A DNA stretch of 64,000 nt. Origin: Calothrix brevissima NIES-22. Its GTDB lineage: Bacteria; Cyanobacteriota; Cyanobacteriia; Cyanobacteriales; Nostocaceae. The notes under the pieces were generated by a model, which worked only from the letters and a program-made list of their open reading frames with translations, did not search any database and was not told where the DNA came from. Where the stretch lies: the NCBI RefSeq assembly GCF_002367995.1, contig NZ_AP018211.1, forward strand, positions 124,001 through 188,000, written 5' to 3'. Every line of letters begins with the position of its first letter. The stretch's first letter is position 1. This document shows, piece after piece, positions 45,618 to 61,861 of this stretch. A program made the translations under genes and the position numbers.

Positions 45618-46155
45618 TTGGGGGGAAAAGCTTTGCTGACAACGATTTGAGTGAAATATTTAGCACGTCTTGGAGCGGCTTCTGGGGTTCAGCCGGGATA
45701 CCTGTAAGTGCGATTCGTTCTGGAGAAACCCATTATTTGGAGGGATTCCAGGCATCAGGATACCGTTGGCGAATTCCCCTAGAGAAACTGCTTTTGGGAA
45801 AATTTTAATTAGTATTGAGCCGATAGAAAAAGTAATCCACCAGGGAGGTACTGCCCCTCCTTTCACTGTGTTATCAGCACAGCGCCTCAATGAGTCGGCT
45901 TCAGGTGGAAAGGCGGAAGCTAAGAGAATCGTAGACGCAAAGCGGCTTCCCGAAGGGTACTCTTGACGGTGTAAGCCGCAGCCGCTTTCAAGGCGGTTTC
46001 CTCGTCCATGCCGGACAGCTTCCATTCAGGGGTATCTGAGGAGGCTTGTAGACGCGTTCGCGGAGCGTTGCCGAAGGCTAGCGGCTTCCCGAAGGGTACT
46101 CCCTAATGACTGGTTCCACAAACCAGCGCCAACCCACGGCTTCAGACACCATCAG
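45618..46155. other. Gene-poor region with small dispersed repeats before the tRNA array
   Basis: No convincing gene. The repeat GCGGCTTCCCGAAGGGTACTC occurs near 45944 and again near 46082. A second block type (CGCGTTCGCGGAGCGTTGCC) lies near 46053. The same CTTCCCGAAGGGTA core interrupts the tRNA-Lys gene at 47004-47024. The array transcript from the right would run into this region. Confidence 0.5.
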
Positions 46156-46230
46156 TGGAATCAAGGGGATTTGAACCCCTAACCTCCTGTGTGCAAGGCA
46201 GGCGCTCTAGCCAGTTAGAGCTATGACCCC
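46156..46230 (-). tRNA. tRNA-Ala(UGC)
   Basis: Cloverleaf on the minus strand with acceptor GGGGTCA and the G3-U70 pair that marks alanine tRNAs. The anticodon loop is CTTGCAC (anticodon TGC), T-loop TTCAAAT. One mismatch closes the anticodon stem. CCA is not encoded. It is the last gene of the array. Confidence 0.85.
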
Positions 46231-46235
46231 ATATT

Positions 46236-46312
46236 TGGTGGATACTGGTCGGAATCGAACCGACAACCTTCTAACGGCCAGTTAGATGCTTTACCGATTA
46301 AGCTACAGACCC
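46236..46312 (-). tRNA. tRNA-Ala(GGC), degenerate
   Basis: A 6-bp anticodon stem TCTAAC/GTTAGA encloses TGGCC; read as a 7-base loop the anticodon is GGC with an unusual C at position 37. The acceptor has G3-U70 but two mismatches lower down. CCA is encoded. Identity less sure than the neighbours. Confidence 0.6.
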
Positions 46313-46317
46313 ATAGG

Positions 46318-46391
46318 CGAGAGTGGTAGGACTTGAACCCACAACCTTCGAGGTAGAAGCTCGATGTTCTATTCCATTGAGCTACACTCCC
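46318..46391 (-). tRNA. tRNA-Arg(UCU)
   Basis: Acceptor GGGAGTG/CACTCTC, anticodon stem TCGAG/CTCGA with loop CTTCTAC (anticodon TCT), T-loop TTCAAGT. CCA is not encoded in full. Confidence 0.9.
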
Positions 46392-46397
46392 ATAAGT

Positions 46398-46473
46398 TGG
46401 TAGCCCCGGCAGGAATTGAACCCGCGACTTCCTCTTTGTAAGAGAGGCACTCTCCCAACTGAGTTACAGGGCT
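46398..46473 (-). tRNA. tRNA-Val(UAC)
   Basis: Acceptor AGCCCTG/CGGGGCT, anticodon stem CCTCT/AGAGG with loop CTTACAA (anticodon TAC), T-loop TTCAATT, encoded CCA. Confidence 0.9.
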
Positions 46474-46478
46474 ACGAA

Positions 46479-46549
46479 AGCGAGTGATGGGACTCGAACC
46501 CATGCGCTCTCGTGTGGCGCACTCAGATGCTAGCCACTACATCACACCC
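46479..46549 (-). tRNA. tRNA-Gly(GCC)-like, degenerate
   Basis: The T arm (ATGGG/CCCAT, loop TTCGAGT) is good. The acceptor has two mismatches and the anticodon arm is poor: the best fold gives loop GCGCCAC with anticodon GCC but C instead of the invariant U33. Probably decaying. Confidence 0.5.
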
Positions 46550-46574
46550 ACATTGAAGAACCTTGAAGGTTCAG

Positions 46575-46646
46575 AGCGATCAACGAGATTTGAACTCGTG
46601 TCTCCTGGTTGGAAGCCAAGGGTGTTTACCACTACACCATGATCGC
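46575..46646 (-). tRNA. tRNA-Gly(UCC)
   Basis: Perfect acceptor GCGATCA/TGATCGC, anticodon stem CTTGG/CCAGG with loop CTTCCAA (anticodon TCC), T-loop TTCAAAT. CCA not encoded. Confidence 0.9.
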
Positions 46647-46650
46647 ATTA

Positions 46651-46724
46651 AGCTGGTGACAGGAGTTGAAAGAGCAACCTACTGATTACAAGTCAGTTGC
46701 TCTGCCACATTGAGCTACACCAGC
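46651..46724 (-). tRNA. tRNA-Thr(UGU) with disrupted T stem
   Basis: Perfect acceptor GCTGGTG/CACCAGC and anticodon stem ACTGA/TCAGT, loop CTTGTAA (anticodon TGT). The T-stem strands (TGCTC and TCCTG) do not pair, although the T-loop TTTCAAC is recognisable. CCA not encoded. Confidence 0.75.
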
Positions 46725-46732
46725 ACTAATTT

Positions 46733-46809
46733 TGGTGACGGGGGCAGGAGTCGAACCTGCCGATGTTCAGGTTATGAGCCTGACGAGCCACCGTTGCTCC
46801 ATCTCCGCG
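46733..46809 (-). tRNA. tRNA-Met(CAU), initiator-like
   Basis: Loop CTCATAA on stem TCAGG/CCTGA. The 5' end CGCGGAG leaves position 1 unpaired (C1 against C72), as in bacterial initiator tRNAs, but only two of the three diagnostic G-C pairs of the anticodon stem are present. CCA encoded. Initiator identity uncertain. Confidence 0.85.
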
Positions 46810-46820
46810 ATGTTACCAAA

Positions 46821-46895
46821 TACCCCTGACTGGATTTGAAGGGTGCAACTTCCAAATTTTAAGTTTGGCACCTCTTCCACTTGGGTTACAGGGGT
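46821..46895 (-). tRNA. tRNA with Leu(UAA) anticodon but short variable loop
   Basis: Acceptor ACCCCTG/CAGGGGT and anticodon stem CCAAA/TTTGG with loop CTTAAAA (anticodon TAA). Leucine tRNAs normally carry a long variable arm; here it is about 5 nt. The T-stem strands CACCC and CCAGT do not pair. Identity and function are doubtful. Confidence 0.65.
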
Positions 46896-46901
46896 AAGTT
46901 T

Positions 46902-46976
46902 TGGTGGGCGCTACAGGAGTTGAACCTGTGTCAGCCTGATTAAGAGTCAGGAGCATAACCGTTCTGCCAAACGCCC
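46902..46976 (-). tRNA. tRNA-Lys(CUU)
   Basis: Acceptor GGGCGTT/AGCGCCC, anticodon stem CCTGA/TCAGG with loop CTCTTAA (anticodon CTT), T-loop TTCAACT, encoded CCA. Confidence 0.9.
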
Positions 46977-46982
46977 AAGATT

Positions 46983-47078
46983 TGGTGGGTCGTCAGAGAC
47001 TCGTAGCTTGCTTCCCGAAGGGTACTCTGATCACTCCGCTTAAAAGGCGGGAACTAAGCACCATTGAGCTAACGACCC
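46983..47078 (-). tRNA. tRNA-Lys(UUU) interrupted by a small repeat in the T-loop
   Basis: Perfect acceptor GGGTCGT/ACGACCC, anticodon loop CTTTTAA (anticodon TTT), T-stem CAGAG/CTCTG intact, encoded CCA. The T-loop is about 26 nt instead of 7 because a small repeat of about 19 bp with core CTTCCCGAAGGGTA lies at about 47004-47024. Without it the gene would have normal length. Confidence 0.8.
47004..47024. repeat. Small dispersed repeat inside tRNA-Lys
   Basis: Core GCTTCCCGAAGGGTA, also present near 45947 and 46085 outside any gene. TA at both edges may be a 2-bp target duplication. The size and site (RNA loop) match the very small mobile repeats known from Nostoc. Confidence 0.7.
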
Positions 47079-47083
47079 ATGAA

Positions 47084-47152
47084 TCCGAGTGGTAGGATTT
47101 GAACCTACGACCGCCTGTTCCCAAAACAGGAGTGCTGCCAAGCTACACCACA
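47084..47152 (-). tRNA. tRNA-Pro(UGG), imperfect acceptor
   Basis: Anticodon stem CCTGT/ACAGG with loop TTTGGGA (anticodon TGG), T arm GTAGG/CCTAC. The acceptor (TGTGGTG against CACTCGG) has at least two mismatches. CCA not encoded. Confidence 0.75.
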
Positions 47153-47163
47153 CCTGGATAATA

Positions 47164-47236
47164 CTGCCCTGCCAGGGTTTGAACCTGGAATCTCCTCGTT
47201 CAAAGCGAGGAATGTTGCCAGTTACACCACAGGGCA
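47164..47236 (-). tRNA. tRNA-Gln(UUG)
   Basis: Acceptor TGCCCTG/CAGGGCA, anticodon stem CCTCG/CGAGG with loop CTTTGAA (anticodon TTG), T-loop TTCAAAC. CCA not encoded. Confidence 0.9.
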
Positions 47237-47241
47237 ATAAT

Positions 47242-47318
47242 TGGCTGCCGAGGTTGGGGTCGAACCAACATCTCCGTGATTCAGAGTCACAGCGACTTTC
47301 CAAGTCGTCCACTCGGCA
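47242..47318 (-). tRNA. tRNA-Gln(CUG)
   Basis: Acceptor TGCCGAG/CTCGGCA, anticodon stem TGTGA/TCACG with loop CTCTGAA (anticodon CTG), T-loop TTCGACC, encoded CCA. Confidence 0.85.
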
Positions 47319-47323
47319 ATGAA

Positions 47324-47398
<75 letters not shown>

Positions 47399-47407
47399 AT
47401 GTGCCAG

Positions 47408-47481
47408 TCCCCCAGATCCGGATTGAACGGATGACCTCCTGTTCTTCAGACAGGCGCTACTACCAACTGAGCTACCAGGGG
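47408..47481 (-). tRNA. tRNA-Phe(GAA)
   Basis: Acceptor CCCCTGG/CTGGGGG, anticodon stem CCTGT/ACAGG with loop CTGAAGA (anticodon GAA), T-loop TTCAATC. CCA not encoded. Confidence 0.9.
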
Positions 47482-47487
47482 ATAAAG

Positions 47488-47561
47488 CGAGAACGGAAGG
47501 ACTTGAACCTTCACTCTTCAGTTTCGTAGACTGACGTGTTATCCTGTTACACCACGTTCTC
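47488..47561 (-). tRNA. tRNA-Arg(ACG)
   Basis: Perfect acceptor GAGAACG/CGTTCTC, anticodon stem TCAGT/ACTGA with loop CTACGAA (anticodon ACG, A34 normally edited to inosine), T-loop TTCAAGT. CCA not encoded. Confidence 0.9.
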
Positions 47562-47567
47562 ATAAGG

Positions 47568-47657
47568 CGGAGAGGACAGGATTTGAACCTGCGACGGGCA
47601 TTAACTACCCGCTTCCTCTTAGCAGGAGGATGCTTTTAACCACTCAGCCACCTCTCC
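47568..47657 (-). tRNA. tRNA-Ser(GCU)
   Basis: Perfect acceptor GGAGAGG/CCTCTCC, anticodon stem TCCTC/GAGGA with loop CTGCTAA (anticodon GCT), and the long variable arm expected of serine tRNAs. CCA not encoded in full. Confidence 0.92.
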
Positions 47658-47661
47658 GTAA

Positions 47662-47763
47662 TGGGTCGGGCTGGAATTGAACCAGCAATACTGAACGCGG
47701 CGGTTTTACAGACCGTTACCTACACCAATAGGTGTAGCGAACTGCAAATAGGTGAGCCGACCC
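47662..47763 (-). tRNA. tRNA-Tyr(GUA) with a 20-bp duplication in the D-loop
   Basis: Acceptor GGGTCGG/CCGACCC, anticodon loop CTGTAAA (anticodon GTA), class II variable arm. The gene is 102 nt. The octamer AATAGGTG occurs at 47727-47734 and 47747-47754, exactly 20 bp apart, so 20 nt were added in the D-loop. The extra bases create a perfect 7-bp hairpin CTACACC-AATA-GGTGTAG (47720-47737). Confidence 0.85.
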
Positions 47764-47770
47764 ATAAATT

Positions 47771-47847
47771 TGGTAGTGCAGACGGGACTTGAACCCGCTA
47801 ATTACACGCTTGAAAGACGTGCCGCTCGGCCACTTCGCTTCTGCACC
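47771..47847 (-). tRNA. tRNA-Glu(UUC)
   Basis: Acceptor GGTGCAG/CTGCACT (G1-U72), anticodon stem CACGT/GCGTG with loop CTTTCAA (anticodon TTC), T-loop TTCAAGT, encoded CCA. Confidence 0.9.
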
Positions 47848-47877
47848 ATGTATGCCATGTAAGTTGAAAAAGCTGTT

Positions 47878-47949
<72 letters not shown>

Positions 47950-47974
47950 AGCTTTTTCGGTTAGGACACGGCAA

Positions 47975-48046
47975 CGCACAGACTAGGACTTGAACCCAGA
48001 ACAACAGTTTTGGAGACTGTGGTGTTGCCAATTACACCATCTGTGC
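47975..48046 (-). tRNA. tRNA-Trp(CCA)
   Basis: Perfect acceptor GCACAGA/TCTGTGC, anticodon stem ACAGT/ACTGT with loop CTCCAAA (anticodon CCA), T-loop TTCAAGT. The D arm (GGTGTAATTGGCAACA) resembles that of the Gln(UUG) gene. CCA end not encoded. Confidence 0.85.
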
Positions 48047-48049
48047 ATT

Positions 48050-48124
48050 TGGTCGCAGCGACGGGATTTGAACCCGTATACTCTCGGTTATGAGCCGAGT
48101 ACCTTGCCGTTAGGTGACGCTGCA
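48050..48124 (-). tRNA. tRNA with CAU anticodon (elongator Met or Ile2)
   Basis: Acceptor TGCAGCG/CGCTGCG, anticodon stem CTCGG/CCGAG with loop CTCATAA (anticodon CAT), T-loop TTCAAAT, encoded CCA. Could be tRNA-Ile2 if C34 is lysidinylated; sequence alone does not decide. Confidence 0.85.
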
Positions 48125-48127
48125 ATG

Positions 48128-48203
48128 TGGAGTCCAGGGTGGGATTTCAACCCACGATTGTCGGTTTTGCAAGCCGTTGCCTTAAACACTTGGCGACCTG
48201 GAC
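48128..48203 (-). tRNA. tRNA-Cys(GCA)
   Basis: Perfect acceptor GTCCAGG/CCTGGAC with U73, the cysteine discriminator, and encoded CCA. Loop TTGCAAA gives anticodon GCA. The T-loop is TTGAAAT, with G in place of the invariant C56. Confidence 0.8.
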
Positions 48204-48214
48204 GTAATGTTACA

Positions 48215-48290
48215 CGGGGATGATGGGATTTGAACCCACGGTCTTTCGCTCGACAGGCGACTGCTTTAAACCGGACTAAGCTACACCCCC
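48215..48290 (-). tRNA. tRNA-Asp(GUC)
   Basis: Acceptor GGGGGTG/CATCCCC, anticodon stem with loop CTGTCGA (anticodon GTC), G73 discriminator, T-loop TTCAAAT. CCA not encoded. First tRNA of the array in transcription order. Confidence 0.9.
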
Positions 48291-48356
48291 ACGTTGGGTG
48301 GCAATTATTTAGTTTTCATGGTTCAGAGGTGTTAGCGCTGTGCCTTTTTGAGAGGT

Positions 48357-49882: not shown

Positions 49883-51643
49883 ATGCCGGACTCCCAGGAA
49901 CCAAAGCAAGTCACCAATAACAACTTACCCAATTCTCAGTTTGGCAGAGGGCTGATTAATGCTGAATCTGTGAAGGCAGAGCGTATAGGCGGTGACATCT
50001 ACAATATCCACCTTGGGCAGCAGACGGTAGCACCAGCTAATCACAATACCCAGCAGCAGAAAATTTTGATTCTGGCAGCAATTCCTCATGGTTTGCGGTT
50101 GGATCGAGAGATTAGGGAAATTGAGGAAGCCATACGACGCGCCACAAGACGGGATTTGTTTGAGATTCGGATTAGAACTGCTGTACGTCCTCAAGATATT
50201 CGTAGGGCGCTCGCAGAAGAACGCCCTTGTATTGTTCATTTATGTGGACATGGGTTAGAAGATGGCAGTTTGTTGCTAGAAGATGATGGCGGGAACAACA
50301 AACCTGTTTCGGCAGATGGTTTAGCATCGCTGTTTAAGTTACACGCCGATTATGTCAACTGTGTCTTACTCAACGCCTGCTACTCAGCTAAACCTGCTCA
50401 TGCAATTAGCCAACATATTAATTATGCAATTGGTATGAATCAGCCCATTGGTGACAAAGCTGCAATTGCGTTTGCTCAAGGGTTCTATGATGGTTTGGGT
50501 TACGAAAATTCAGAAACTCAAAATGTATTCCAACGAGCTTTTGAAGAAGGTTTAGTTGCCATTCAAATGGAAGACATTTCACAGGGACAAATACCAGTTT
50601 TAAAAAGTAAAGTTTCTTATATTGAAAATTCTGTATCAGCAACAGACACAGACATATATTTTGAACGACCTCCAAGGGAGCAGAAATGTTATGATGCAAT
50701 TGTGCAGCCAGGGGCTTTAATTAGAATTAAAGCTCCTCAGAAAATGGGGAAAACTCTGCTATTAGAGAAAATCCTGGAATATGCAAGACAAAAAGGTTAC
50801 GAAATAGTTAAATTAGATTTAAAACTTGCTGATAGTTCTACTTTAACTGACTTGAAAACATTCTTAAATTGGTTATGTATTAATGTTTGTGATAGTCTTA
50901 ATCTAGAAGATAAAATAGAAGAATATTGGCAAGATAATTTAGGAATTAATACAAGCTGTACTCGCTACTTTCAGAGATATTTATTATCTAATATTAATAC
51001 AAATTTAGTTTTTGCTATAGATAATTTTGAGCGATTGTTTAAATATGAAAATATCTTCTCGGAATTTTGCTTATTGCTGCGGAGTTGGTATGAAACTGCC
51101 AAACAAGGCGACAGAATGGGGAAAATTTGGAAGAAACTGAGGTTAGTAGTAGTTAATTCTACAGAGACTTATCCTACCTTAGATACTAATCGTTCACCAT
51201 TTAATGTCGGGTTAGCAATTGAGTTACCTGAGTTTAATCAACAGCAGATAGAGGAAATTGTAAATCTGTATGAAGTGAATAGTCTTTTATCAAAAAATGG
51301 ATTAAGCCAATTAATGCACTTACTAGGGGGACATCCTTATCTAGTACAGCTGGCGCTTGCTAACCTCAAGGAACAAGAAATTACCTTGGAGGAGCTATTA
51401 ACACTAGCACCAACAGAACAAGGAATTTTCAGCTATCATCTACGACAACAACTAGAAGCTTTAGAAGATAATTCTGAACTAATTGAGAGTTATAAAAGAG
51501 TAATAACAGCAGATCAGGCAGTACAACTTAGTCCAGAGATTACTTTTAAATTACATAGCTTGGGGCTGGTTAAAATAGTACGCAATGACTGTATTACTAG
51601 TTGTGATTTGTACCGTCAGTATTTCTTGGTAAGATTGGGGTAA
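49883..51643 (+). CDS. CHAT protease-like domain fused to an AAA/STAND-type ATPase
   Basis: A 586-residue protein. The N-terminal 55 residues hold FGRGLINAESVKAERIGGDIYNIHLGQQ-type adaptor sequence (positions about 21-48), a short segment found before effector domains in cyanobacterial signalling proteins. A CHAT domain follows with His123 (CGHG) and Cys166 (NACYS), the caspase-like dyad. From about 265 comes an AAA_35-like ATPase: Walker A APQKMGKTLLL (about 284-294), a Walker B-like NLVFAIDNFERLF, and GGHPYLVQLALANLKE. The start ATG lacks a clear Shine-Dalgarno sequence. Genes with a CHAT protease and an NTPase sensor are known in bacterial conflict and programmed-cell-death systems. The next gene, with a related ATPase, begins 3 nt after this stop, so they are one operon. 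Confidence 0.85.
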   Translation: MPDSQEPKQVTNNNLPNSQFGRGLINAESVKAERIGGDIYNIHLGQQTVAPANHNTQQQKILILAAIPHGLRLDREIREIEEAIRRATRRDLFEIRIRTAVRPQDIRRALAEERPCIVHLCGHGLEDGSLLLEDDGGNNKPVSADGLASLFKLHADYVNCVLLNACYSAKPAHAISQHINYAIGMNQPIGDKAAIAFAQGFYDGLGYENSETQNVFQRAFEEGLVAIQMEDISQGQIPVLKSKVSYIENSVSATDTDIYFERPPREQKCYDAIVQPGALIRIKAPQKMGKTLLLEKILEYARQKGYEIVKLDLKLADSSTLTDLKTFLNWLCINVCDSLNLEDKIEEYWQDNLGINTSCTRYFQRYLLSNINTNLVFAIDNFERLFKYENIFSEFCLLLRSWYETAKQGDRMGKIWKKLRLVVVNSTETYPTLDTNRSPFNVGLAIELPEFNQQQIEEIVNLYEVNSLLSKNGLSQLMHLLGGHPYLVQLALANLKEQEITLEELLTLAPTEQGIFSYHLRQQLEALEDNSELIESYKRVITADQAVQLSPEITFKLHSLGLVKIVRNDCITSCDLYRQYFLVRLG

Positions 51644-51646
51644 TAT

Positions 51647-54136
51647 ATGCACGACCAGTACATTTTCTCTGGAAGCTTACCTGAAAATGCCAGCACTTAT
51701 GTCAAGCGCCAAGCAGATGATGAATTGTATGAAGCATTATTACAAGGGAAGTTTTGTTATGTATTGAATTCTAGGCAGAGTGGCAAGTCTAGCTTGCGTG
51801 TCAGGACAATGAGCCGCTTGAGTGAAGCTGATGTAGAGTGTGCAACTATTGATTTATCGTCTATTAGTATTCAAACAGCAACTCACGAGAATTGGTATGC
51901 AGATTTAATTGTTAAGTTGATAGACAGCTTTGTCTTAGATATAGACTTTAAAAGTTGGTGGGAACAGAATCAACTAAATTCCCCATTACTAAGATTTGGC
52001 AATTTTCTCACAAAAATACTTCTAAGTGAAATTAGCGAAAATATCGTAATTTTTATTGATGAAATTGATAGTGTATTGAGTCTAAAGTTTCCTAAAGATG
52101 ACTTTTTTGCTTTTATCCGTTCTTGTTACAATTTACGAGTTAATAACCCTCAATACAATCGTCTCACGTTCTGCTTGTTGGGGGTAGCGTCTCCGACAAG
52201 TTTAATACAAGACAAGAACCGTACCCCATTTAACATTGGTCAGGCGATCTCTCTCAAGGGTTTCCAATTACATGAGGTTGAACCATTAGAGAAGGGTTTG
52301 TATGGTAAGTTCAATAATCCCCAAGCAATAATGCAGAAAATTTTGCAGTGGACTGGAGGTCAACCATTTCTGACTCAAAAGCTGTGTCAGTTTATGGTTG
52401 AAGAATCAGAGCAAGACAATCCTCGTTCTGTAGAGCAAGTAGTCAGATCACGGATGATCGAGAATTGGGAATCACAGGATGAACCTGAGCATTTGCGAAC
52501 AATTCAAGCCAGAATTTTGCAGGATGAACAACGAGCAGGGTATTTACTAGAACTGTATCAGCAAATTCGATTGCACTCGGAACAATCTGAAATTACAGCA
52601 GATGATACAAGTGAGCAAAGTGAGTTACAACTTTCAGGATTAGTTGTTAGGCAGCAGAACAAGTTAAAAGTTTATAATTCCATTTATCAAGAAGTTTTTG
52701 ATTCTAATTGGATTGAAAATCAATTAAAAAATCTACGCCCGTATTCAGAAAATTTCCGCTTTTGGGTGGCTTCTGGAGGTGCTGATGAATCACGATTGCT
52801 GCGAGGAAGGACTTTACAATCAGCTTTAGAGTGGGCAAAGGATAAAAGTTTAAATTATCAAGATAGGCAGTTTTTAGCAGCTAGCCAAGCAAAGGAAAAA
52901 GAAGATGAAATCGCTGCTACTGAAAAAGAAGCGGCTTTAGAGAGAGAAAGGAAGGATAGAGAAGCGGCAGAAAAAAGAACTTTGGTGCTGGCTTCAGCTA
53001 ATCAAAAATTAGCTGAAGCTAATCGGAAAGCTCAAAAACGTATTCGTATTGGTTCTGTTATTTTAGGTCTGACCTTGGTAGGAGCAGTATTTTCTATAAT
53101 TTGGGCAGGCAAGGATATTCAAGAAATAAGGAATACTACCGAGCAGATATCAACTTTATCTAAACTAGGTGAAGAACTTCATCGCAAGGGTAAAGTCCTT
53201 GAAGCAAGTAGAGCTAGAGAACAAATAGGTTTAGCTTATGAAATTAGAGACTATGAATTCAAGAAAGCAGTACTATTAACTTTTATTTCACAAGCCTATG
53301 AGCGACTTGAGAACTGGGATGAAGCAGAAAGTGCAATTAAAGAAAGTCTAGATATTTTAAAAAATCATGCAAACAATAGTAATTTTGATGAAAGATTACA
53401 AATTCAAGTCTTAGCTCAGACAGTTAAAGGCAATTTGCTGGTACAAAAAAAAGAAACAAATCAGGCTATAGAATATTATAAAAGAGCATTTAATCTTCTT
53501 AAAAATTCCTCCCGAAAAACTAGTTCATTTACAAAAACTAATGGATTGCTTGCAGATCAAGATGTTGAATCTTCTGTTCTAAGTTTAATTAGGCTACTCT
53601 CCAAAAATAATACAGAATTAGAATTGAGAAAACAGGCTGAACAATTCCTTCCCCCAAATTTCCCTGAATATGCTTCATTTTCTAGGCTACCTTGCGATAA
53701 TGAGCAACAACTATTCTCTCCTCCTACACCTACAGGAAAGCCAGATTGGCAAACTTCCATATATATATATTACGGGCAGATAAATCCAATAACAAAAGAA
53801 GCCAATGGTAGAGGATTGATAATTTTTAAGAACGTTGGTTTTCAATACTACGGAGATTTTAAGAATAATAAACGTCATGGATGTGGAAGATTGACATATC
53901 CAAAAGAAAGTAATATTCAATATTATTTAGGTCAGTTTAAAGATGATTATTATCAAGGATTAGGACGTTTGAAATGGAAAAATCAAAATGAATATAGAGG
54001 AAACTTTGTTCAAAATAGATGTAAAGGACAAGGAGTATATGTATTTGCAGATAAAACTAAACCTAAACAGTCTGGAATATGGGATGAAAATAAGCTAAAA
54101 GTAGAAGGAAATGAAAATTTGTCATGTAATAAGTAA
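51647..54136 (+). CDS. AAA_35-type ATPase with TM segment, TPR and MORN repeats
   Basis: An 829-residue protein. The N-terminal ATPase (AAA_35-like) has Walker A NSRQSGKSSLRV (about 41-52), Walker B IVIFIDEIDSVL (about 133-144) and GGQPFLTQKLCQFM (about 233-246), a winged-helix-like region after that, and RLLRGRTLQSALEWA near 382. A charged coiled coil (about 405-460, EKEAALERERKDREAAEKR) leads into one membrane helix (IGSVILGLTLVGAVFSIIWA, about 467-486). TPR-like helices follow (about 490-620). The C-terminus (about 715-810) has MORN repeats (YYGDFKNNKRHGCGRLTYP, YRGNFVQNRCKGQGVYVF), which bind lipids or membranes. It is operonic with the CHAT-ATPase upstream. I infer a membrane-anchored partner of that protease; function unproven. 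Confidence 0.8.
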   Translation: MHDQYIFSGSLPENASTYVKRQADDELYEALLQGKFCYVLNSRQSGKSSLRVRTMSRLSEADVECATIDLSSISIQTATHENWYADLIVKLIDSFVLDIDFKSWWEQNQLNSPLLRFGNFLTKILLSEISENIVIFIDEIDSVLSLKFPKDDFFAFIRSCYNLRVNNPQYNRLTFCLLGVASPTSLIQDKNRTPFNIGQAISLKGFQLHEVEPLEKGLYGKFNNPQAIMQKILQWTGGQPFLTQKLCQFMVEESEQDNPRSVEQVVRSRMIENWESQDEPEHLRTIQARILQDEQRAGYLLELYQQIRLHSEQSEITADDTSEQSELQLSGLVVRQQNKLKVYNSIYQEVFDSNWIENQLKNLRPYSENFRFWVASGGADESRLLRGRTLQSALEWAKDKSLNYQDRQFLAASQAKEKEDEIAATEKEAALERERKDREAAEKRTLVLASANQKLAEANRKAQKRIRIGSVILGLTLVGAVFSIIWAGKDIQEIRNTTEQISTLSKLGEELHRKGKVLEASRAREQIGLAYEIRDYEFKKAVLLTFISQAYERLENWDEAESAIKESLDILKNHANNSNFDERLQIQVLAQTVKGNLLVQKKETNQAIEYYKRAFNLLKNSSRKTSSFTKTNGLLADQDVESSVLSLIRLLSKNNTELELRKQAEQFLPPNFPEYASFSRLPCDNEQQLFSPPTPTGKPDWQTSIYIYYGQINPITKEANGRGLIIFKNVGFQYYGDFKNNKRHGCGRLTYPKESNIQYYLGQFKDDYYQGLGRLKWKNQNEYRGNFVQNRCKGQGVYVFADKTKPKQSGIWDENKLKVEGNENLSCNK

Positions 54137-54918: not shown

Positions 54919-55746
54919 CTAAATCCAGTTTTCAAAGTTTTCAGCTTCCACCTGGGGCAAATACAGCTTGTCCCAGTTGCGATCAAACTGCTCCCTAACT
55001 ATCCTTGAGACAAAGCCAACAGCATTATCTCTGTCATAGTGAATTGCAACTTTAAGTAGTGCTAGGTTTTGCGTTCCTAACGTTATGTAGTTGATGCCAC
55101 GCCTAATTAGCTCAGAGTTAGGGGGCAAAGCAACATCTTTTAATGGGTTATCTGGAATGTCCCTAAGCTCATGCTGATATGAAGGTAAAGCCTTAACTCC
55201 CTCCATAACAATAGTTTCTGCCCATTGCTGAAATGGAATTTCGCGCATTTGAGCATCAAATTTGGCTAAGTTTAGGCAATAGTCTCGGTGTAACTGCAAC
55301 CATTCACGTATGAAGTAGGTAATTAAAAACTTTTCAGAATCTCCCCAAATATTTGTAATAATCTCAATTTTTTTAACATCCTCGGTATAAGCATAGTAAT
55401 AAGGCAGTAAAAACTTTTTAGAGTTTTTCTGACTCGTTGATTGTTTAATTCCATTAAGAGGTGGATTAAACCAGTTGATTAATGCTTTTTCTATTGTTGG
55501 TAGGAGTGATTTGTCTGATACTTCCAGCCAAGCTAAACGAATATTCCCAATCTTTATAAGCTCATTTTCTTTGTGATGAGCAGCCCATCTGGATTTTAAG
55601 CTGCTAGCAATCCCTATATATTGAATTGTGTTGTTAGCATCAATAGCAAAATATATGGCTGAACATATAGGTAAACTCTTACGTTGCTCCAAAGGTAATG
55701 ATGGCAGCAATAAAGGGTTTAAAGATTTAAAATCAACATTGGTCAT
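54919..55746 (-). CDS. GIY-YIG nuclease-like protein with a C-terminal domain shared with its neighbour
   Basis: A 275-residue protein; I choose the ATG at 55746 (MTNVDFKSLNPLLLPSLPLE) over a TTG 12 nt upstream. The N-terminal 95 residues resemble a GIY-YIG endonuclease: AIYFAIDANNTIQYIGIASSLKSRWAAHH (positions about 34-62) and a later Glu in TIEKALINWFNPPLNG, the usual metal ligand before NxPLN. From about 135 to the end (REWLQLHRDYCLNLAKFDAQ, NAVGFVSRIVREQFDRNWDKLYLPQVEA) it is strongly similar to the whole of the upstream gene product. It follows that gene by 2 nt. The architecture of GIY-YIG plus this second domain, next to a stand-alone copy of the domain, is not one I can name. Confidence 0.75.
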   Translation of the reverse strand: MTNVDFKSLNPLLLPSLPLEQRKSLPICSAIYFAIDANNTIQYIGIASSLKSRWAAHHKENELIKIGNIRLAWLEVSDKSLLPTIEKALINWFNPPLNGIKQSTSQKNSKKFLLPYYYAYTEDVKKIEIITNIWGDSEKFLITYFIREWLQLHRDYCLNLAKFDAQMREIPFQQWAETIVMEGVKALPSYQHELRDIPDNPLKDVALPPNSELIRRGINYITLGTQNLALLKVAIHYDRDNAVGFVSRIVREQFDRNWDKLYLPQVEAENFENWI

Positions 55747-55748
55747 TC

Positions 55749-56252
55749 TTAAAACCAAACTTTTGATTTTGAAGCTTCTACTTGAGGCAAATAAAGTTTA
55801 TCCCAATTGCGCTGCAATTGTTCTCTAACAATCCGTGATACAAACCCAATTGCGCTATCACGGTCATAAAAAATCCCAATACGCAACAAAGCTATATTCT
55901 GCTCTGACAACAAAATATAGTTGAGTTGTCGCTTTACGAGATTTGCAGTTGGAGGTAAGACAATATCTCGCAAAGGATTATCCGGAGTTTCAATTGAATG
56001 CTTGTAATCAGGTAGACCTTCAACACCCTTACTGAGCATTATTTCTACCCACTCTTGTGAAGATAGTTCTCTAGCTTGAGCATCTAGCTTGGCCAAGTTT
56101 AGGTAATATTCTCTGTTACGCCCAATCCAACCCCTAACATATTGAGTGACAAGGGTTTTTAACGAATCGCCTGAGACTTCCCCAAAAATGGACATTTTCT
56201 CGTCATCTTCTGGAGTCACGTAGTAGTAGGTAAGCGAGTATTGTTGAGCCAT
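55749..56252 (-). CDS. Stand-alone paralogue of the GIY-YIG protein's C-terminal domain
   Basis: A 167-residue protein starting MAQQYSLTYYYVTPEDDEKM. Residues about 35-167 align with the C-terminal half of the next gene product, including REYYLNLAKLDAQARELSSQ, DNPLRDIVLPPTANLVKR, and SAIGFVSRIVREQLQRNWDK then LYLPQVEA. The first 30 residues also match the corresponding linker (YYYAYTEDVKKIEIITNIWG there). So the nuclease gene arose by fusion of a GIY-YIG module to a duplicate of this gene, or this is the nuclease-less copy. First gene of a three-gene minus-strand operon. Function unknown. Confidence 0.7.
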   Translation of the reverse strand: MAQQYSLTYYYVTPEDDEKMSIFGEVSGDSLKTLVTQYVRGWIGRNREYYLNLAKLDAQARELSSQEWVEIMLSKGVEGLPDYKHSIETPDNPLRDIVLPPTANLVKRQLNYILLSEQNIALLRIGIFYDRDSAIGFVSRIVREQLQRNWDKLYLPQVEASKSKVWF

Positions 56253-56412: not shown

Positions 56413-56631
56413 ATGGATCGTTTCACTAACAGAACCGAATATGTTTTGAACGAAATTGCAAGCTATCCAAGTCAAGCTGAGGCGGCGGCGGCCCTTGGAA
56501 CTAGCCCACAGGTTGTTTCTCGCTGGAATTGTAACGAATCTCAGCCTAGTGGTGTAGTTGCTAGAGTTTGCCAGTTGGCTAGATACATAAAAGAATTGGG
56601 CTATGAATTACCGCCCACCATTGATTTCTAA
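56413..56631 (+). CDS. Small Cro-like helix-turn-helix regulator
   Basis: A 72-residue protein starting MDRFTNRTEYVLNEIASYPS. The helix-turn-helix is SQAEAAAALGTSPQVVSRWN (about 20-39), of the Cro/YdaS kind, with QVVSRW as recognition helix. Cro-like proteins of this size repress their own and neighbouring promoters. An AGGAG precedes the start and a strong terminator follows (56664-56686), so it is a single transcript facing the cassette that begins at 56928. Probably the regulator of that cassette. Confidence 0.75.
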   Translation: MDRFTNRTEYVLNEIASYPSQAEAAAALGTSPQVVSRWNCNESQPSGVVARVCQLARYIKELGYELPPTIDF

Positions 56632-56663
56632 GAAAATATCTCCGCAATCAACTAAAGTTGTTG

Positions 56664-56686
56664 CCCCTCTAATTAGAGGGGTTTTT
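56664..56686 (+). terminator. Rho-independent terminator after the HTH gene
   Basis: CCCCTCT-AATT-AGAGGGG is a perfect 7-bp stem with a 4-base loop, followed directly by TTTTT. A textbook intrinsic terminator. Confidence 0.85.
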
Positions 56687-56699
56687 AATTTAAGTGGAT

Positions 56700-56927
56700 A
56701 GCTTATGCAGTGCTGTTGCATTGCAGAAACCTAATGTTTGTCCGTAGTGGATAGCACTTTTACTTACTTTTTTGTAATTCAAAAGTGGCAATTATTAAAC
56801 ATTCCACTGCAATTATGCAGAGTGTGAAATACAAATAAGCAGTATTTGAAATTAAAGTACAGCTTACTTGTAGTTCATCCACTGCAATTATGCAAATTAC
56901 AGTTAGTGCATATTGCATAAATCAATA
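56700..56927. repeat. Regulatory region with TGCA-type repeats before the ATPase cassette
   Basis: CCACTGCAATTATGCA occurs twice (about 56801 and 56879). Related TGCAT/ATGCA motifs lie near 56707, 56722 and 56907. The cores are imperfect palindromes TGCA-ATT-ATGCA-like. Similar motifs (TGCAATATGCAT, ATGCACTAAATAA) recur at the far end of the cassette, 61558-61670. They may be operators or element ends. Confidence 0.5.
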
Positions 56928-57350
56928 ATGGAAGAAACAAGAATTATTTATGAAACATTAGTAGGTGACAGAGTTAATGATGTCCACTGGTGGCGCGTCA
57001 AGAAAGCCATGAGTGCATCAGAACTGCCTTTAAATAAGTCTGGTTTTGAATTGTTCATTGCACTAAAGAGAACTTCACCCCGCTACTTTTCTCAATATCA
57101 TAAAGTCAAACGTCAAGTTTCAACTATTGAGTCATCTATAGGTGAGGGTGTTACTGGTGAACAGTTTGTAAGCTTGCTGGAAAAGCTCGATATCTCTCCT
57201 AATCAATCAACTATCAGTCGATGGTTTAAAGGCTGTGGAGGCTTCAAAGCAAAGCAGTTTTATTGTAAGACTGTGCTACTTCCTATCATTGCGATCGCAT
57301 TGATATACAAGTCAAAAGTTCAAAACAATCAATTAGCAAAGGTAGGTTAA
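56928..57350 (+). CDS. Putative DNA-binding protein, first gene of the ATPase cassette
   Basis: A 140-residue protein; I choose the ATG at 56928 (MEETRIIYETLVGDRVNDVH) over an upstream TTG. Residues about 85-110 (LLEKLDISPNQSTISRWFKG) look like a helix-turn-helix with STISRWF as recognition helix. Near the end LLPIIAIALIYKSK could be a short membrane segment or a buried helix. The next gene's GTG starts 1 nt after this stop. No family known to me; it may regulate the cassette or act as a membrane-linked DNA adaptor. Confidence 0.65.
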   Translation: MEETRIIYETLVGDRVNDVHWWRVKKAMSASELPLNKSGFELFIALKRTSPRYFSQYHKVKRQVSTIESSIGEGVTGEQFVSLLEKLDISPNQSTISRWFKGCGGFKAKQFYCKTVLLPIIAIALIYKSKVQNNQLAKVG

Positions 57351-57351
57351 T

Positions 57352-58044
57352 GTGATTAACAAAGTATCAACTCGGATTCAATCTAGATTATCTAGAAAAA
57401 GTATCAAAGTCTCGTTAGGTAAAATTAAACAGATTTATTCTCAGATGGTAGCTGATGCAAATAAGCCAACTAATGCTGAAATTGACGCTATAACTGATTA
57501 CTTTATTAAACAATTCTCTAAACCTGCACCCGTTACTCAAGAAGAAACAGAGTTAGTAGAAACAGAATCAAATCCAGAAATAACCGCAATTGATATTATA
57601 GAAACTGATTCTACGCTGGAAGAACCACAAAATAAGTCAGCGATCGCAGTTCCCGAAGATAATCAAATAGTTGTGTCTAGTGCCGATAAACAAGCATTAG
57701 TCAGCACCCAATCAGCAGCATTAGGATTTGAGTTGTCAGAACAGGAAACAATAGCAATAGCTGACAATATTGATAATGTATTTGCTGATTACTCAGCTTT
57801 TGTTACCAGTGTTACCTCTGCCATTAAAGGTTATATTGCCCACAAATTTGATGAGATAGAGGAAAAATTAGATAGCAGTGGTAATGAGGTAAGGAATTAT
57901 TTAGCCGATAGAAATTTCAGGTTGAATCAAAAATTGGTTGATTATACCAACAATGTCAAAAGCATCCAGTCTGATACTGAGGAAATGCGAGAAAATTTGA
58001 GAACAACTAAAAATATAGTCTTATCTCGGTTTCAAATTAAATAA
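57352..58044 (+). CDS. Acidic coiled-coil protein of the cassette
   Basis: A 230-residue protein with GTG start (MINKVSTRIQSRLSRKSIKV). A basic N-terminus (about 1-35) leads into a long Glu/Thr-rich disordered segment (about 60-120), then a helical C-terminus with coiled-coil character (IEEKLDSSGNEVRNYLADRN, DYTNNVKSIQSDTEEMRENL). No enzyme motif and no signal peptide. It could be a structural or DNA-packing component. The small TM protein that follows starts in the +1 frame 29 nt after this stop. Confidence 0.65.
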   Translation: MINKVSTRIQSRLSRKSIKVSLGKIKQIYSQMVADANKPTNAEIDAITDYFIKQFSKPAPVTQEETELVETESNPEITAIDIIETDSTLEEPQNKSAIAVPEDNQIVVSSADKQALVSTQSAALGFELSEQETIAIADNIDNVFADYSAFVTSVTSAIKGYIAHKFDEIEEKLDSSGNEVRNYLADRNFRLNQKLVDYTNNVKSIQSDTEEMRENLRTTKNIVLSRFQIK

Positions 58045-58072
58045 AAATCATGACGGATTAACACAAATATTT

Positions 58073-58228
58073 TTGGGAATAATCACGTTATTATCCCTAT
58101 TCTTTGCCCTTTCAGGTATCACTCAAGCCTACCAACACTACCACTTACCTTCAAAGGTTGAGGAGCGTTTGCAAGAGAAGAAGTTAATTGATTATTGTCC
58201 TTTATCTATTCCATTGGAGGAATGCTAA
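58073..58228 (+). CDS. 51-residue small membrane protein coupled to the next gene
   Basis: An open frame from a TTG at 58073 codes for MGIITLLSLFFALSGITQAY, then a basic/acidic tail ending CPLSIPLEEC. It has one strong membrane helix at the N-terminus. Its TAA (58226-58228) overlaps the ATG of the next gene (TAATG), a sign of real translation and coupling. The start is uncertain: no ATG is present, the frame is open upstream to about 58019, and a +1 frameshift from the previous gene is an alternative. Confidence 0.55.
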   Translation: MGIITLLSLFFALSGITQAYQHYHLPSKVEERLQEKKLIDYCPLSIPLEEC

Positions 58229-58884
58229 TGGTGAAAGCCAAGTATCTAAAAGACCATGTAACAGGCTACGGTAAAAATGTTAGTCGTGCCACTAAAGACA
58301 AGTTTGGTATTTCTAATCAATTGATAGTTAAGGCTGCATTAGGTGATGAGAAATCACTTACCCAAATTGCGGATATGGGTAAATTGGGTGAAAGACTAAT
58401 TCTAGTGATGCCTACTATCAAGCAAAATCTAAATTCTTACATTCAGGGCAACACCCAATACAATCAAACTCTTGCAGAAATTTATAGAGAAGGTGGCAAG
58501 GGTGCATTAGCAATTGATAAAGCATCCTCAGACCTAACACTAGAAAATACCAAGTTCAATAACTTACTAGAGGAATATAAAGCGCGTTTGTTTGCGTCTC
58601 TAGAGGCTGAAGAAGACAGGCATAACATCCAGATGGATGCTATTGAACTGCAAGCCTGGATAGATACTCAGATGAAAGAGATTGATTATAAAGTGCAGAT
58701 GGAGAATATATCTAATAAGCCTTTCGTCGCTCAAATAAAGGCTGATGAAGATTACGAAACCAAGAAAATTCAGCACATTCTAGAGCATGGTAGCGAGAGT
58801 GATTTAAGCTTAATTCCTCGCAAACAATATATTACTAATCCACTGAGAAAGCTTTGGCAGGAAATTAGAGATTTATTCAGCTAA
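58228..58884 (+). CDS. Coiled-coil protein of the cassette
   Basis: A 218-residue protein; I choose the ATG at 58228 (MVKAKYLKDHVTGYGKNVSR), with GGAGGA 6 nt before it. It is helical and charged, with long amphipathic helices (KASSDLTLENTKFNNLLEEYKARLF region, about 100-125; IELQAWIDTQMKEIDYKVQM, about 145-165). No domain is recognised and there is no membrane segment. The N-terminal MVKAKYLKDHVTGYGKNV is basic and could bind nucleic acid or lipid. A hairpin (58897-58920) separates it from the next gene. Confidence 0.65.
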   Translation: MVKAKYLKDHVTGYGKNVSRATKDKFGISNQLIVKAALGDEKSLTQIADMGKLGERLILVMPTIKQNLNSYIQGNTQYNQTLAEIYREGGKGALAIDKASSDLTLENTKFNNLLEEYKARLFASLEAEEDRHNIQMDAIELQAWIDTQMKEIDYKVQMENISNKPFVAQIKADEDYETKKIQHILEHGSESDLSLIPRKQYITNPLRKLWQEIRDLFS

Positions 58885-58896
58885 TTGATGATAGAA

Positions 58897-58920
58897 AGCC
58901 CCCTACGCGGCAAGGGGGCT
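58897..58920 (+). terminator. Hairpin between cassette genes
   Basis: AGCCCCCT and AGGGGGCT form a perfect 8-bp stem with an 8-base loop. On the plus strand it is followed by AAAAATATTT, so it is not a clear terminator. It may be an attenuator or mRNA processing/stability site. Confidence 0.5.
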
Positions 58921-58942
58921 AAAAATATTTAGTGATTGTATT

Positions 58943-59545
58943 ATGGCTCAAATTCCCTACGAATACCCAGATTTTAACAATAGTGATGAGTCAGCAACTC
59001 AAAATAATTATCCGGTAGAACTAGATGATAGTTTTACACCTGACCAGATAGAGGAAATTAATAATTACAAGGAAAGAGCTAACAAAAAAATTGCTAAAAA
59101 TGAATCTATCCTCAGAGGTTTAGAAACATTCTTTTGGGGAATTAGCTCTTACTCACTTTGTAAATGGTTGATTTTAAATCTAGGATCAAGTGGTATCAGT
59201 GTTGCGATCGCACTTGCGTTAGTGGTCAATCAGATAGTAAATCGTGATTGTTTAGATAGCTTTAATCTAAATAAAAAAGATGGTCAGTGGGAACTAAACG
59301 GTATGGGTAAATTATTTAAATTTGGGTTTGGATTGTTGACGAGTGCCTTTGTACTTTGGTCATCTATCGGCAACTTTATAGGAATGGTAAATGATTCTAA
59401 GGTAACTTACTATGCTTTAAATAATGTTGTTGAAGAATTTAATAGTTTGCCTAAAAAACAACAAGAGGAATGGATACAAGGCGCTGTTACTGGTGCGGCA
59501 TTGGTGGCGTTGATATTTATTGGTGTTGGAGTAAATAAGAGGTAA
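58943..59545 (+). CDS. Membrane protein of the cassette
   Basis: A 200-residue protein starting MAQIPYEYPDFNNSDESATQ. After an acidic disordered N-terminus (about 1-35) and an amphipathic helix there are three likely membrane helices: about 70-95 (LCKWLILNLGSSGISVAIAL), 127-148 (FGFGLLTSAFVLWSSIGNFI) and 181-199 (AVTGAALVALIFIGVGV). The next gene, the ATPase, starts 4 nt after its stop, so the two are tightly coupled and probably form a complex. No family recognised. Confidence 0.7.
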   Translation: MAQIPYEYPDFNNSDESATQNNYPVELDDSFTPDQIEEINNYKERANKKIAKNESILRGLETFFWGISSYSLCKWLILNLGSSGISVAIALALVVNQIVNRDCLDSFNLNKKDGQWELNGMGKLFKFGFGLLTSAFVLWSSIGNFIGMVNDSKVTYYALNNVVEEFNSLPKKQQEEWIQGAVTGAALVALIFIGVGVNKR

Positions 59546-59549
59546 GTTA

Positions 59550-60977
59550 ATGAAAACTTTACCTATTATTACAGTGCTGGGGGTGGTCAGTTCATTAGTA
59601 TCAGCATTTTATTTGGGTCAGATAGATGAATTAAGTTTTGATCGAGTAACTATACAGTTTTGTCCCCAAACTGCAAACATCAACCAACCAAACGCCAGAG
59701 AATCACAAGGAAAACTAGATTTACAATACTGTCGATATCGTCATCGGTTATTAAAAGAAGTATGGGAAAGCGAGCAGTATAAGGCAGCAATTCCACTATC
59801 TAAAGAATCATTCTCTATTCAAGAATACAAAGGTGATAATTCGGGGGGAATTTGGCTTTTGCTGGCTCCCTTTCTAGCTGGTAGCGCATACTTAGCATGG
59901 TCAAACAAGTGTCAAATTGATTACGATAAAAAATTTAAGTTACTTGAAGACTTAAAAAGCTCTTATAAACTGGCTACTGTGTCAGCTAGGAATGAGAGAG
60001 AGTTTAAAGCTACTGCTATTAATCAGAGATGGGATACTCAACGGGTCAAAGCTGGTCAGATTTCAATTGATGCTATGCAAGATAGATTGAGGCGACAAAG
60101 TGAAATTCAAGACCGTACTCATGATTCTACATTAAAACAATTCGATTTAAATGATAGTCAAGCAGATAAACAAATTGCTGAGAATCAATTAGCCGTTACA
60201 GAAGCTAATAAGAAAAGGGATAAACTATCTAAAACTAATCATAACGAAGATAATACCAATCAAAAACCGACAAATGAATTATTAAAAGATAGTTTAATTG
60301 ATGCTCTCAAAAATCATGAGGATGGCTGGCTCTGGAATATCATTAAAGCAGCCAAGCCCCTATGGATAATTGGCGAACAGGGAACAGGTAAAACTAATAC
60401 ATCTGTATCTATTGGGTTGATTCGTAAATACTGTTTAGGTATCTCAATTTTCAGAATTGCTGATCGCCACTTAAACGGAGCTAATAGCAAGGTTTGGAAA
60501 CTGCTAGAAGCACAGAATAAGGCTGATAATGATTCAGCTATTATTGAGGTTTTGCAAGATACCTATGAGCGGAGATTAGAGCGTATTGCATTAGATTTAG
60601 ATGATAAACAAGCGGAACAATTTTTATTAGATGAATTTACTCATCTTCGAGATATTGATGAGGAAACTATAACTAAATTTATTAAATCAACGTTCAGCGA
60701 TACTAGAAAAGCCAAAGAAAGATTTATTGGTGTAACCCATCTTGGAACTAATGCAGCTTTTGGAGATGGTACAGCAGCCATGAGAAAGGCTGGCAGTATC
60801 CTGATTGAAAAATTTACAGCAGATGGAGAGAAACCATTATCTAGAGTAGTTATTAAACATGGCTTAGTTGATAGCCAAGGAAATAAACTAGAAGATGTAG
60901 AGCATACATTACCAACATGGTTTGAGGCTTTGACAATTTACAATCATTTCCACAATAAACCTATTGAATTTAATTAG
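59550..60977 (+). CDS. Membrane-anchored P-loop ATPase of unknown role
   Basis: A 475-residue protein. Two N-terminal membrane segments (about 3-22, LPIITVLGVVSSLVSAFYLG; about 97-115, GGIWLLLAPFLAGSAYLAWS) flank a periplasmic-type loop with two Cys. A coiled coil follows (about 145-225). The C-terminal ATPase has Walker A IIGEQGTGKTNTS (about 272-284), Walker B FLLDEFTH (about 363-370) with the catalytic Glu, a sensor-like FIGVTHLGTNAAFGDG (about 392-407), and IEKFTADGEKPLSRVVIKHG. The layout recalls DNA-pumping or assembly ATPases of the HerA/FtsK/VirB4/Zot type, but I cannot place it in one of them. It is the only clear enzyme of the cassette, so the cassette probably moves or assembles something at the membrane. 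Confidence 0.75.
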   Translation: MKTLPIITVLGVVSSLVSAFYLGQIDELSFDRVTIQFCPQTANINQPNARESQGKLDLQYCRYRHRLLKEVWESEQYKAAIPLSKESFSIQEYKGDNSGGIWLLLAPFLAGSAYLAWSNKCQIDYDKKFKLLEDLKSSYKLATVSARNEREFKATAINQRWDTQRVKAGQISIDAMQDRLRRQSEIQDRTHDSTLKQFDLNDSQADKQIAENQLAVTEANKKRDKLSKTNHNEDNTNQKPTNELLKDSLIDALKNHEDGWLWNIIKAAKPLWIIGEQGTGKTNTSVSIGLIRKYCLGISIFRIADRHLNGANSKVWKLLEAQNKADNDSAIIEVLQDTYERRLERIALDLDDKQAEQFLLDEFTHLRDIDEETITKFIKSTFSDTRKAKERFIGVTHLGTNAAFGDGTAAMRKAGSILIEKFTADGEKPLSRVVIKHGLVDSQGNKLEDVEHTLPTWFEALTIYNHFHNKPIEFN

Positions 60978-60988
60978 GGATATCAAAA

Positions 60989-61861
60989 ATGGACACAATA
61001 ACAGATTTTTTATTCTTAAATGAAAATTTGGCTACAAACTTCAACCCTTTTTATGAAGATGAATATTTAGTAATTCAAACTTACCCTCCTGAAAAAAGGC
61101 TAATAATAGATAAACGAAGCTTCAACCATAAAGAAGCCAGAAATTATTGTGATATTCAAAATCTTGCTCATGATTACACATCATATAGTTTAAGAATCTT
61201 TCATAATCAAAAACTTTGGGAAGTAAACTTTATGGGTGAGCCTTTGGAAGTTTCTCAGCAGCAAGATTGGAAGATTCATGAAGATTACTTTCAAGCCGAG
61301 CGTGATGAAAATTTTGATTGCGAAATAGTTTTATGTCGATGCAGTTATCCTTACTTTTCTTCATTAAGAACTTTCAGCAATAATTATGGAGAAGGTGATG
61401 AGTATTGGCAACCTGTAACCTGCCTTGTAGAAGATAACGGCAGAGATATAGATAATTGCCCAAATTGTAACTGTGCGTTAATTAAGTTAGATGAAAATGA
61501 AGACGAGGAAGATGATGATAACTATCGCCTACTTACAATTGTAGGCTCTTGGTTATTAGTGCATACGCTATTTGCACTGCAATATGCATATAGTATTCTA
61601 TGGAGATGGCCCTGCACCGAGTCATTCATCTATTGGTTGCGCGGGAGGGCGCATTGCACATACTATGCACTAAATAATTCATTATTAAGCTTAGTTCTAC
61701 CTAGATACAGGACATACAGTAGCAACAGGGCGAGATATTGGTGTAGCTTGAGGTGCATTAGTAACCAAAGCTATTTCACCAGTAGCAGTTTTGACCATAC
61801 CTTGCGCTTCGATAATCTCCGAAGTTGCATTGTTGCTTACCGGAACAATACCATCTATTGA
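60989..61861 (+). CDS. Zinc-ribbon-like protein with a suspect C-terminal tail
   Basis: A 290-codon frame 11 nt after the ATPase. The first 180 residues or so look like a normal soluble acidic protein (MDTITDFLFLNENLATNFNP, and CPNCNCALIKLDENEDEEDD with a zinc-knuckle-like CxxCxC). After about 61525 the frame enters repeat DNA: an inverted repeat GCCTAC/GTAGGC (61527-61546), TGCA motifs, and from 61697 the antisense end of a haemagglutinin-like gene. The tail (RLLTIVGSWLLVHTLF onwards) is probably not native. The gene seems to have been broken at the junction and has acquired a random end. Function unknown. Confidence 0.5.
   Translation: MDTITDFLFLNENLATNFNPFYEDEYLVIQTYPPEKRLIIDKRSFNHKEARNYCDIQNLAHDYTSYSLRIFHNQKLWEVNFMGEPLEVSQQQDWKIHEDYFQAERDENFDCEIVLCRCSYPYFSSLRTFSNNYGEGDEYWQPVTCLVEDNGRDIDNCPNCNCALIKLDENEDEEDDDNYRLLTIVGSWLLVHTLFALQYAYSILWRWPCTESFIYWLRGRAHCTYYALNNSLLSLVLPRYRTYSSNRARYWCSLRCISNQSYFTSSSFDHTLRFDNLRSCIVAYRNNTIY
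61527..61690. repeat. Junction region with inverted and TGCA repeats
   Basis: GCCTAC (61527-61532) is the inverse of GTAGGC (61541-61546). TGCATACG, TTTGCACTGCAATATGCATA and GCGCATTGCACATACTATGC follow within 110 bp. These motifs resemble those at 56700-56910, so the two regions may be the ends of one element. Confidence 0.45.

Follow-up and report, generated by a model that had tools for sequence, protein, structure and literature searches.

The window analysed here, 64,000 nucleotides corresponding to bases 124001–188000 of contig C5 (190,194 bases) in the 9.26-Mb genome of Calothrix brevissima NIES-22, carries a conserved unit of six genes at window positions 56928–60977 on the plus strand. 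These genes, hth, cc1, tm1, cc2, tm3 and an ATPase gene, form a cassette that resides in plasmid backbones, and on balance we favour the view that it builds a membrane-bound DNA-handling complex serving either segregation or the spread of plasmid DNA between the cells of a filament. Such a machine is suggested because one unit, found once per plasmid, usually beside ParA and in filamentous hosts, combines a membrane core with a motor and with a module for plasmid-specific recognition. We found no published account of the cassette in the open-access literature, a scope without most subscription journals.

The first gene, hth (56928–57350, with a possible alternative TTG start at 56913), codes for a putative site-specific DNA-binding protein of 140 residues that has the sequence appearance of a helix-turn-helix (HTH) protein. 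It is followed by cc1 (57352–58044), encoding a coiled-coil-like soluble protein and putative adaptor of 230 residues, and by tm1 (58073–58228), which starts with TTG and specifies 51 residues with a single transmembrane (TM) segment. Small open reading frames (ORFs) with a TM segment or hydrophobic stretch occupy the tm1 slot also on contigs C6 and C8 of the same genome, in the related loci L006, L026 and L034, and in others. The hallmark gene cc2 (58228–58884) again encodes a coiled-coil-like protein, of 218 residues, and tm3 (58943–59545) a membrane protein of 200 residues. The ATPase (59550–60977) combines an N-terminal membrane/coiled part (about residues 1–235) with a C-terminal P-loop motor domain (about 236–475). 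As an earlier, sequence-only reading of this DNA had stated, the ORFs are closely packed, with spacings of 1 nt (hth–cc1), 28 nt (cc1–tm1), 58 nt (cc2–tm3) and 4 nt (tm3–ATPase) and a stop-start overlap, TAATG, between tm1 and cc2. Its TM counts, three for tm3 and two for the ATPase, agree in part with a simple hydropathy scan, which finds at least two segments in tm3 and either one or two in the ATPase, varying by copy. In the cc2–tm3 gap lies a G+C-rich stem-loop (58897–58920, plus strand), similar to stems in L006–L009 and L026, which may set the protein ratio.

The order of these genes is conserved. Removal of duplicates reduced 75 loci to 69 non-redundant loci with cc2, tm1 being left out of the count as too short for reliable detection, and the genes that are present always stand in one order, none being permuted; the synteny proposed as a check in the sequence-only reading is hence kept among relatives. 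An hth gene occurs in 48 loci, 44 of which have the full hth–cc1–cc2–tm3–ATPase series. ParM is found in 11, hth together with ParM and/or partner remnants in four, and neither hth nor ParM in six within the stretch available. In the plasmid database PLSDB, the ATPase query found 41 places in 41 records and the cc2 query 49 places in 49 records, the latter from Nostoc (27), Calothrix (13), Tolypothrix (4) and Anabaena (2), with single records from Microchaete, Allocoleopsis and Cylindrospermopsis. All of these host genera are filamentous. The source genome holds four copies, one each on contigs C5, C6, C7 and C8. Among 386 genomes of the phylum, 20 contain cc2 (19 of the same family, one of the same order only), at 37 places on 37 contigs; outside the source genome, the contigs concerned measure 6.5–292 kb (32 of 33 places retrieved). 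A scan of genome contigs yielded 21 loci.

The core genes cc2, tm3 and ATPase are under purifying selection, with dN/dS ratios relative to the nearest relative, L026, of about 0.10, 0.07 and 0.10, respectively; the value for cc1 is 0.61. Three modules recombine among plasmids, namely the HTH gene plus its site, the membrane core and the motor domain. L026 is 90, 93 and 98% identical to the window in tm1, cc2 and tm3 and 95% in both the N and the C part of the ATPase, and its identity falls to 59% in cc1 and 28% in hth. Other relatives show other combinations: L029 shares 71% in hth and 82% in the motor domain and 24–29% elsewhere, L008 and L009 share 76–83% in the core and 20–21% in the motor domain, and L028 shares 83% in the motor domain and 14% in hth. 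In approximately unbiased tests on quick trees, for clades picked after the identity table was known, the hth tree rejected the window–L026 pair (p 2.5e-4) and a core clade with six members (p 1.9e-43). The cc2 tree likewise rejected a clade joining the window, L029 and L034 (p 3e-75), and the motor-domain tree rejected the core clade both with six members (p 0.006) and with four (p 3e-6). A third motor-domain test was ill-posed, as the window's sister L026 had been left out.

The strong divergence of the motor domain among otherwise similar cassettes might also be that of a conflict module, directed against phages, serving exclusion or of another kind, which diversifies under selection. In line with this, two cassette ATPases weakly resemble STAND NTPases, and a motor next to ParM (L055:8777–10597) has a match to PADLOC mad8 (5e-7) that covers its P-loop region. 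However, the six window proteins had no PADLOC match at E 0.1, and a single copy per plasmid, the single gene order and a ParM-linked front end suit plasmid upkeep better, which makes a conflict module very improbable.

Upstream of hth lies a putative recognition site on the plus strand. It consists of dyad 1 (CTGCA-ATTA-TGCAG, 56805–56820), degenerate 22-bp iterons (56820–56877, an offset of 22 being best among 15–59), dyad 2 (CACTGCAATTATGCA, 56880–56894) and, immediately 5' of the hth start, a third dyad (GCATATTGCAT, 56908–56918). One-mismatch copies of dyad 2 precede hth in L029 and L034, two members of the window's HTH clade that have the motif CACTGCAATT[A/T]TGCA there. The 22-bp period reaches a z value of 10.4 in eight relatives and of 4.0, as the best of 45 offsets, in the window alone; L115 and L116 were left out of clade A in this analysis. 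A second HTH clade of 16 members has its best period, a weak one, at 31 bp (z 4.3), three small HTH clades show no clear repeat period, and 11 of 32 upstream regions contain more repeat pairs than the 95% level of shuffled sequence.

This upstream DNA goes with the HTH gene and not with the core. Its similarity score averages 43 in 26 pairs of loci with similar HTH but different core, compared with 9.2 (maximum 13) in 35 pairs with similar core but different HTH and 8.7 (maximum 13) in 300 unrelated pairs, after 14 of 465 pairs outside all four classes had been dropped. The window–L029 pair scores merely 12.75, and overall the score correlates with HTH (rho 0.51) and also with cc2 (rho 0.48). 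Hitchhiking of neighbouring DNA is a possible alternative explanation of this linkage.

The sequence-only reading had placed similar TGCA repeats on both sides of the genes and considered a small integrative or phage-like element. At up to two mismatches, CACTGCAATTATGCA occurs in the whole contig only at 56805 and 56880, and the right-hand repeat, near 61574, proved to be a look-alike, one base short and within codons of a DUF1345-like segment. We therefore rejected an integrative element with TGCA borders. Under the phage-like alternative, the genes would encode structural or packaging functions of a plasmid-like phage. In its favour, the combination of a small TM protein with membrane proteins and a P-loop ATPase is reminiscent of how filamentous phages are assembled, and the ATPase matches PHROG family 29669 (3e-12), whose function is unknown. 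Nevertheless, a search of 50,697 phage records with the ATPase gave no match at E 0.01, and none was confirmed in IMG/VR, where close relatives only are detectable; the annotated host plasmids examined, in whose backbones the cassette sits, showed rep and mostly ParA genes and none for capsids. A phage origin thus appears extremely improbable.

The membrane core is found with two front ends. In L055, L058, L060, L037, L038 and others it is preceded by a ParM homologue; two of these front genes pass Pfam ALP_N, and others are annotated ParM/StbA. In most of these operons ParM is followed by a protein of 77–84 residues that looks like a ribbon-helix-helix-like, putative DNA-binding protein. L109 and L110 hold a ParM fragment and the small partner beside hth–cc1, and L099 and L112 have kept the small partner there. 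The window operon has no ParM; a ParM homologue (17841–18791) and a small ORF (18903–19208), without a membrane core, lie 38 kb from the cassette on the same contig. The cyanobacterial actin FcmB was considered as the cassette-linked ParM and rejected, being chromosomal in the published account (PMC12645912).

Sister cassettes resemble ParMRC in starting with a ParM homologue and a small partner that putatively binds DNA, and the iterons before the operon may be a further likeness. The window cassette differs from it by HTH–cc1 and by a membrane core with a P-loop ATPase, which to our knowledge ParMRC lacks. The cassette might be no more than a second partition system, which tethers plasmid copies to the membrane or places them there during division and pumps no DNA. 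The shared operon position of ParM with its partner in sister plasmids, the iteron site 5' of the first gene, which by its sequence resembles a centromere, and the single cassette per plasmid are compatible with this. Yet partition usually is present already, as ParA is annotated in all four ParM-type plasmids examined and in five of seven HTH-type records of which all or most was examined; pANA03 and pMIC7113.08 have no annotated ParA, and the source contigs C6–C8 carry ParA-like ORFs as judged by eye. Furthermore, we know of no partition system with a multi-protein membrane core having its own P-loop ATPase. We thus regard partition alone as rather unlikely. Because ParA usually is already on the plasmid, the cassette looks like a second DNA-handling function.

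The ATPase has a P-loop and a DE Walker B motif. A low-confidence model of it weakly matches the FtsK, EccC/EssC and TcpA motors over 156–179 residues; AAA+ and ABC proteins are absent among the 50 entries listed, which excludes nothing. In the reading that we favour, it would be a membrane-bound, probably FtsK-like DNA motor. Together with the ParM-led sister operons, the weak motor matches fit the earlier suggestion of membrane machinery for moving DNA or building a filament. The ATPase differs from FtsK, EccC/EssC and TcpA in its N-terminal membrane part and in having no sequence-family match. None of the six cassette proteins reaches a Pfam cut-off and none of the three tested an NCBIfam cut-off, and, in keeping with the sequence-only reading, which could name no system for them, no described conjugation or segregation family clearly fits by sequence. 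The window ATPase does not match Pfam FtsK_SpoIIIE or DUF87, and searches of the source genome with these families did not list the cassette places; weak matches to them occur in two and five of 31 relatives, respectively. Compared with Pfam, NCBIfam and PDB sequences, the ATPase gave generic P-loop matches only, one search being topped by ABC transporters, and hhalign did not separate FtsK, HerA, type IV coupling proteins and the AAA_22 control. AAA_10, with just three sub-cut-off matches in 24 genomes, was unusable as a set.

With TcpA among the structure matches, the cassette might alternatively be a part of conjugation that helps mobilisation to other filaments, made up of an unusual coupling protein and accessory membrane proteins. 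Like VirD4/TraG (PF02534), the ATPase would be a membrane-anchored P-loop ATPase on plasmids, and in two relatives, the Nostoc sp. MS1 plasmids L056 and L057, it is split into two ORFs, the second being annotated as type IV secretory system conjugative DNA transfer family. Moreover, 25 of the 49 cc2 records are typed mobilizable. However, 24 are typed non-mobilizable, and in pANA03 (20 kb) neither a relaxase nor a type IV secretion gene is annotated. In the source genome, PF02534 finds five other proteins, two on C5 and C7, and skips the cassette ATPases; C7 and C5 hence hold canonical coupling proteins separate from the cassette. We therefore rejected the idea that the cassette ATPase serves its plasmid as the ordinary coupling protein, and a role in conjugation more broadly seems improbable.

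Both flanking genes lie outside the conserved set. On the left, a gene for a Cro-like small HTH regulator (56413–56631, plus strand; weak HTH_3 match of 0.0043, below cut-off) is a separate unit, set apart from the site by a terminator-like dyad, CCCCTCTAATTAGAGGGG, plus a T run (56664–56686, plus strand). Of the proposed arrangement of a Cro-like gene followed by a coupled run, the run as far as the ATPase was borne out and the link to the Cro-like gene was not, although by eye a similar C-terminus precedes the cassette in one relative, L026. On the right, a zinc-ribbon-like ORF (60989–61861, plus strand) starts 11 nt after the ATPase and had been taken for a member of the run. It is not conserved: jackhmmer over the gathered loci returned the ORF itself and, via its tail, the L026 DUF1345 gene, and no others. 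Since the tail (residues 180–201, a weak Pfam match below cut-off) and the L026 gene 2.2 kb further on both resemble DUF1345, the ORF is probably a deletion fusion.

Elsewhere in the window, 19 tRNA genes are arrayed on the minus strand at 46155–48291; a linear Nostoc plasmid is reported to carry 24 tRNA genes (PMC5987646). Two adjoining large ORFs (586 and 829 residues) at 49883–54136 have P-loop-like N-terminal parts, and the C-terminal parts of the larger seem repeat-rich by eye. Two adjoining minus-strand ORFs at 54919–56252 have similar C-terminal halves, the first beginning, again by eye, like a GIY-YIG nuclease. On two other contigs of the source genome, an ORF of 435 residues, identical in its first 60, occurs at C6 56384–57691, C8 4533–5840 and C8 22927–24234 and probably encodes a transposase.

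For the membrane-bound DNA-handling complex that we favour, we propose the following mechanism. The HTH protein would bind the dyad/iteron/dyad site before its own gene, thereby marking its own plasmid, and probably would also control the operon. Cc1 would join the HTH protein to the complex, in which tm1, cc2 and tm3 might form a membrane platform. The ATPase, anchored by its N-terminus, could then drive plasmid DNA at the membrane in the manner of FtsK/HerA motors, the septum being the most likely place. Delivery, the part of HTH–cc1 in the window, would fall in sister plasmids to a ParM filament and the small putative DNA-binding partner. The output may be plasmid segregation beyond that by ParA, or a transfer of plasmid DNA from one cell of the filament to its neighbour.

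By analogy, the nearest functional parallel could be TraB with the Spd proteins of Streptomyces. TraB/clt/Spd share with the cassette a multicellular host, plasmid repeats, several small membrane proteins and, putatively, an FtsK-like motor and a DNA-binding protein, and in the Streptomyces mycelium plasmid stability and spreading are reported to be inseparable (PMC4170104). In the cassette, by contrast, the repeats precede the HTH gene; order, proteins and host differ, and we found no sequence relation between the two systems. We may speculate, tentatively and as a somewhat unlikely extension, that the cassette is a septal DNA pump of multicellular cyanobacteria, in which an FtsK-like motor, anchored in the membrane and recognising iterons, hands plasmid DNA on along the filament from each cell to the next. 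Since both its front end (HTH–cc1, or ParM with its partner) and its motor would be exchangeable, it would be an independent counterpart of TraB/Spd with interchangeable parts.

If our favoured reading holds, the cassette would represent an undescribed membrane machine that keeps or spreads plasmid DNA and is common to plasmids of filamentous cyanobacteria. It would allow a test of how plasmids persist in long, many-celled filaments, and could provide a marker for classifying such plasmids. It would also be a case of plasmid-recognition modules and DNA motors being freely exchanged on one membrane core.

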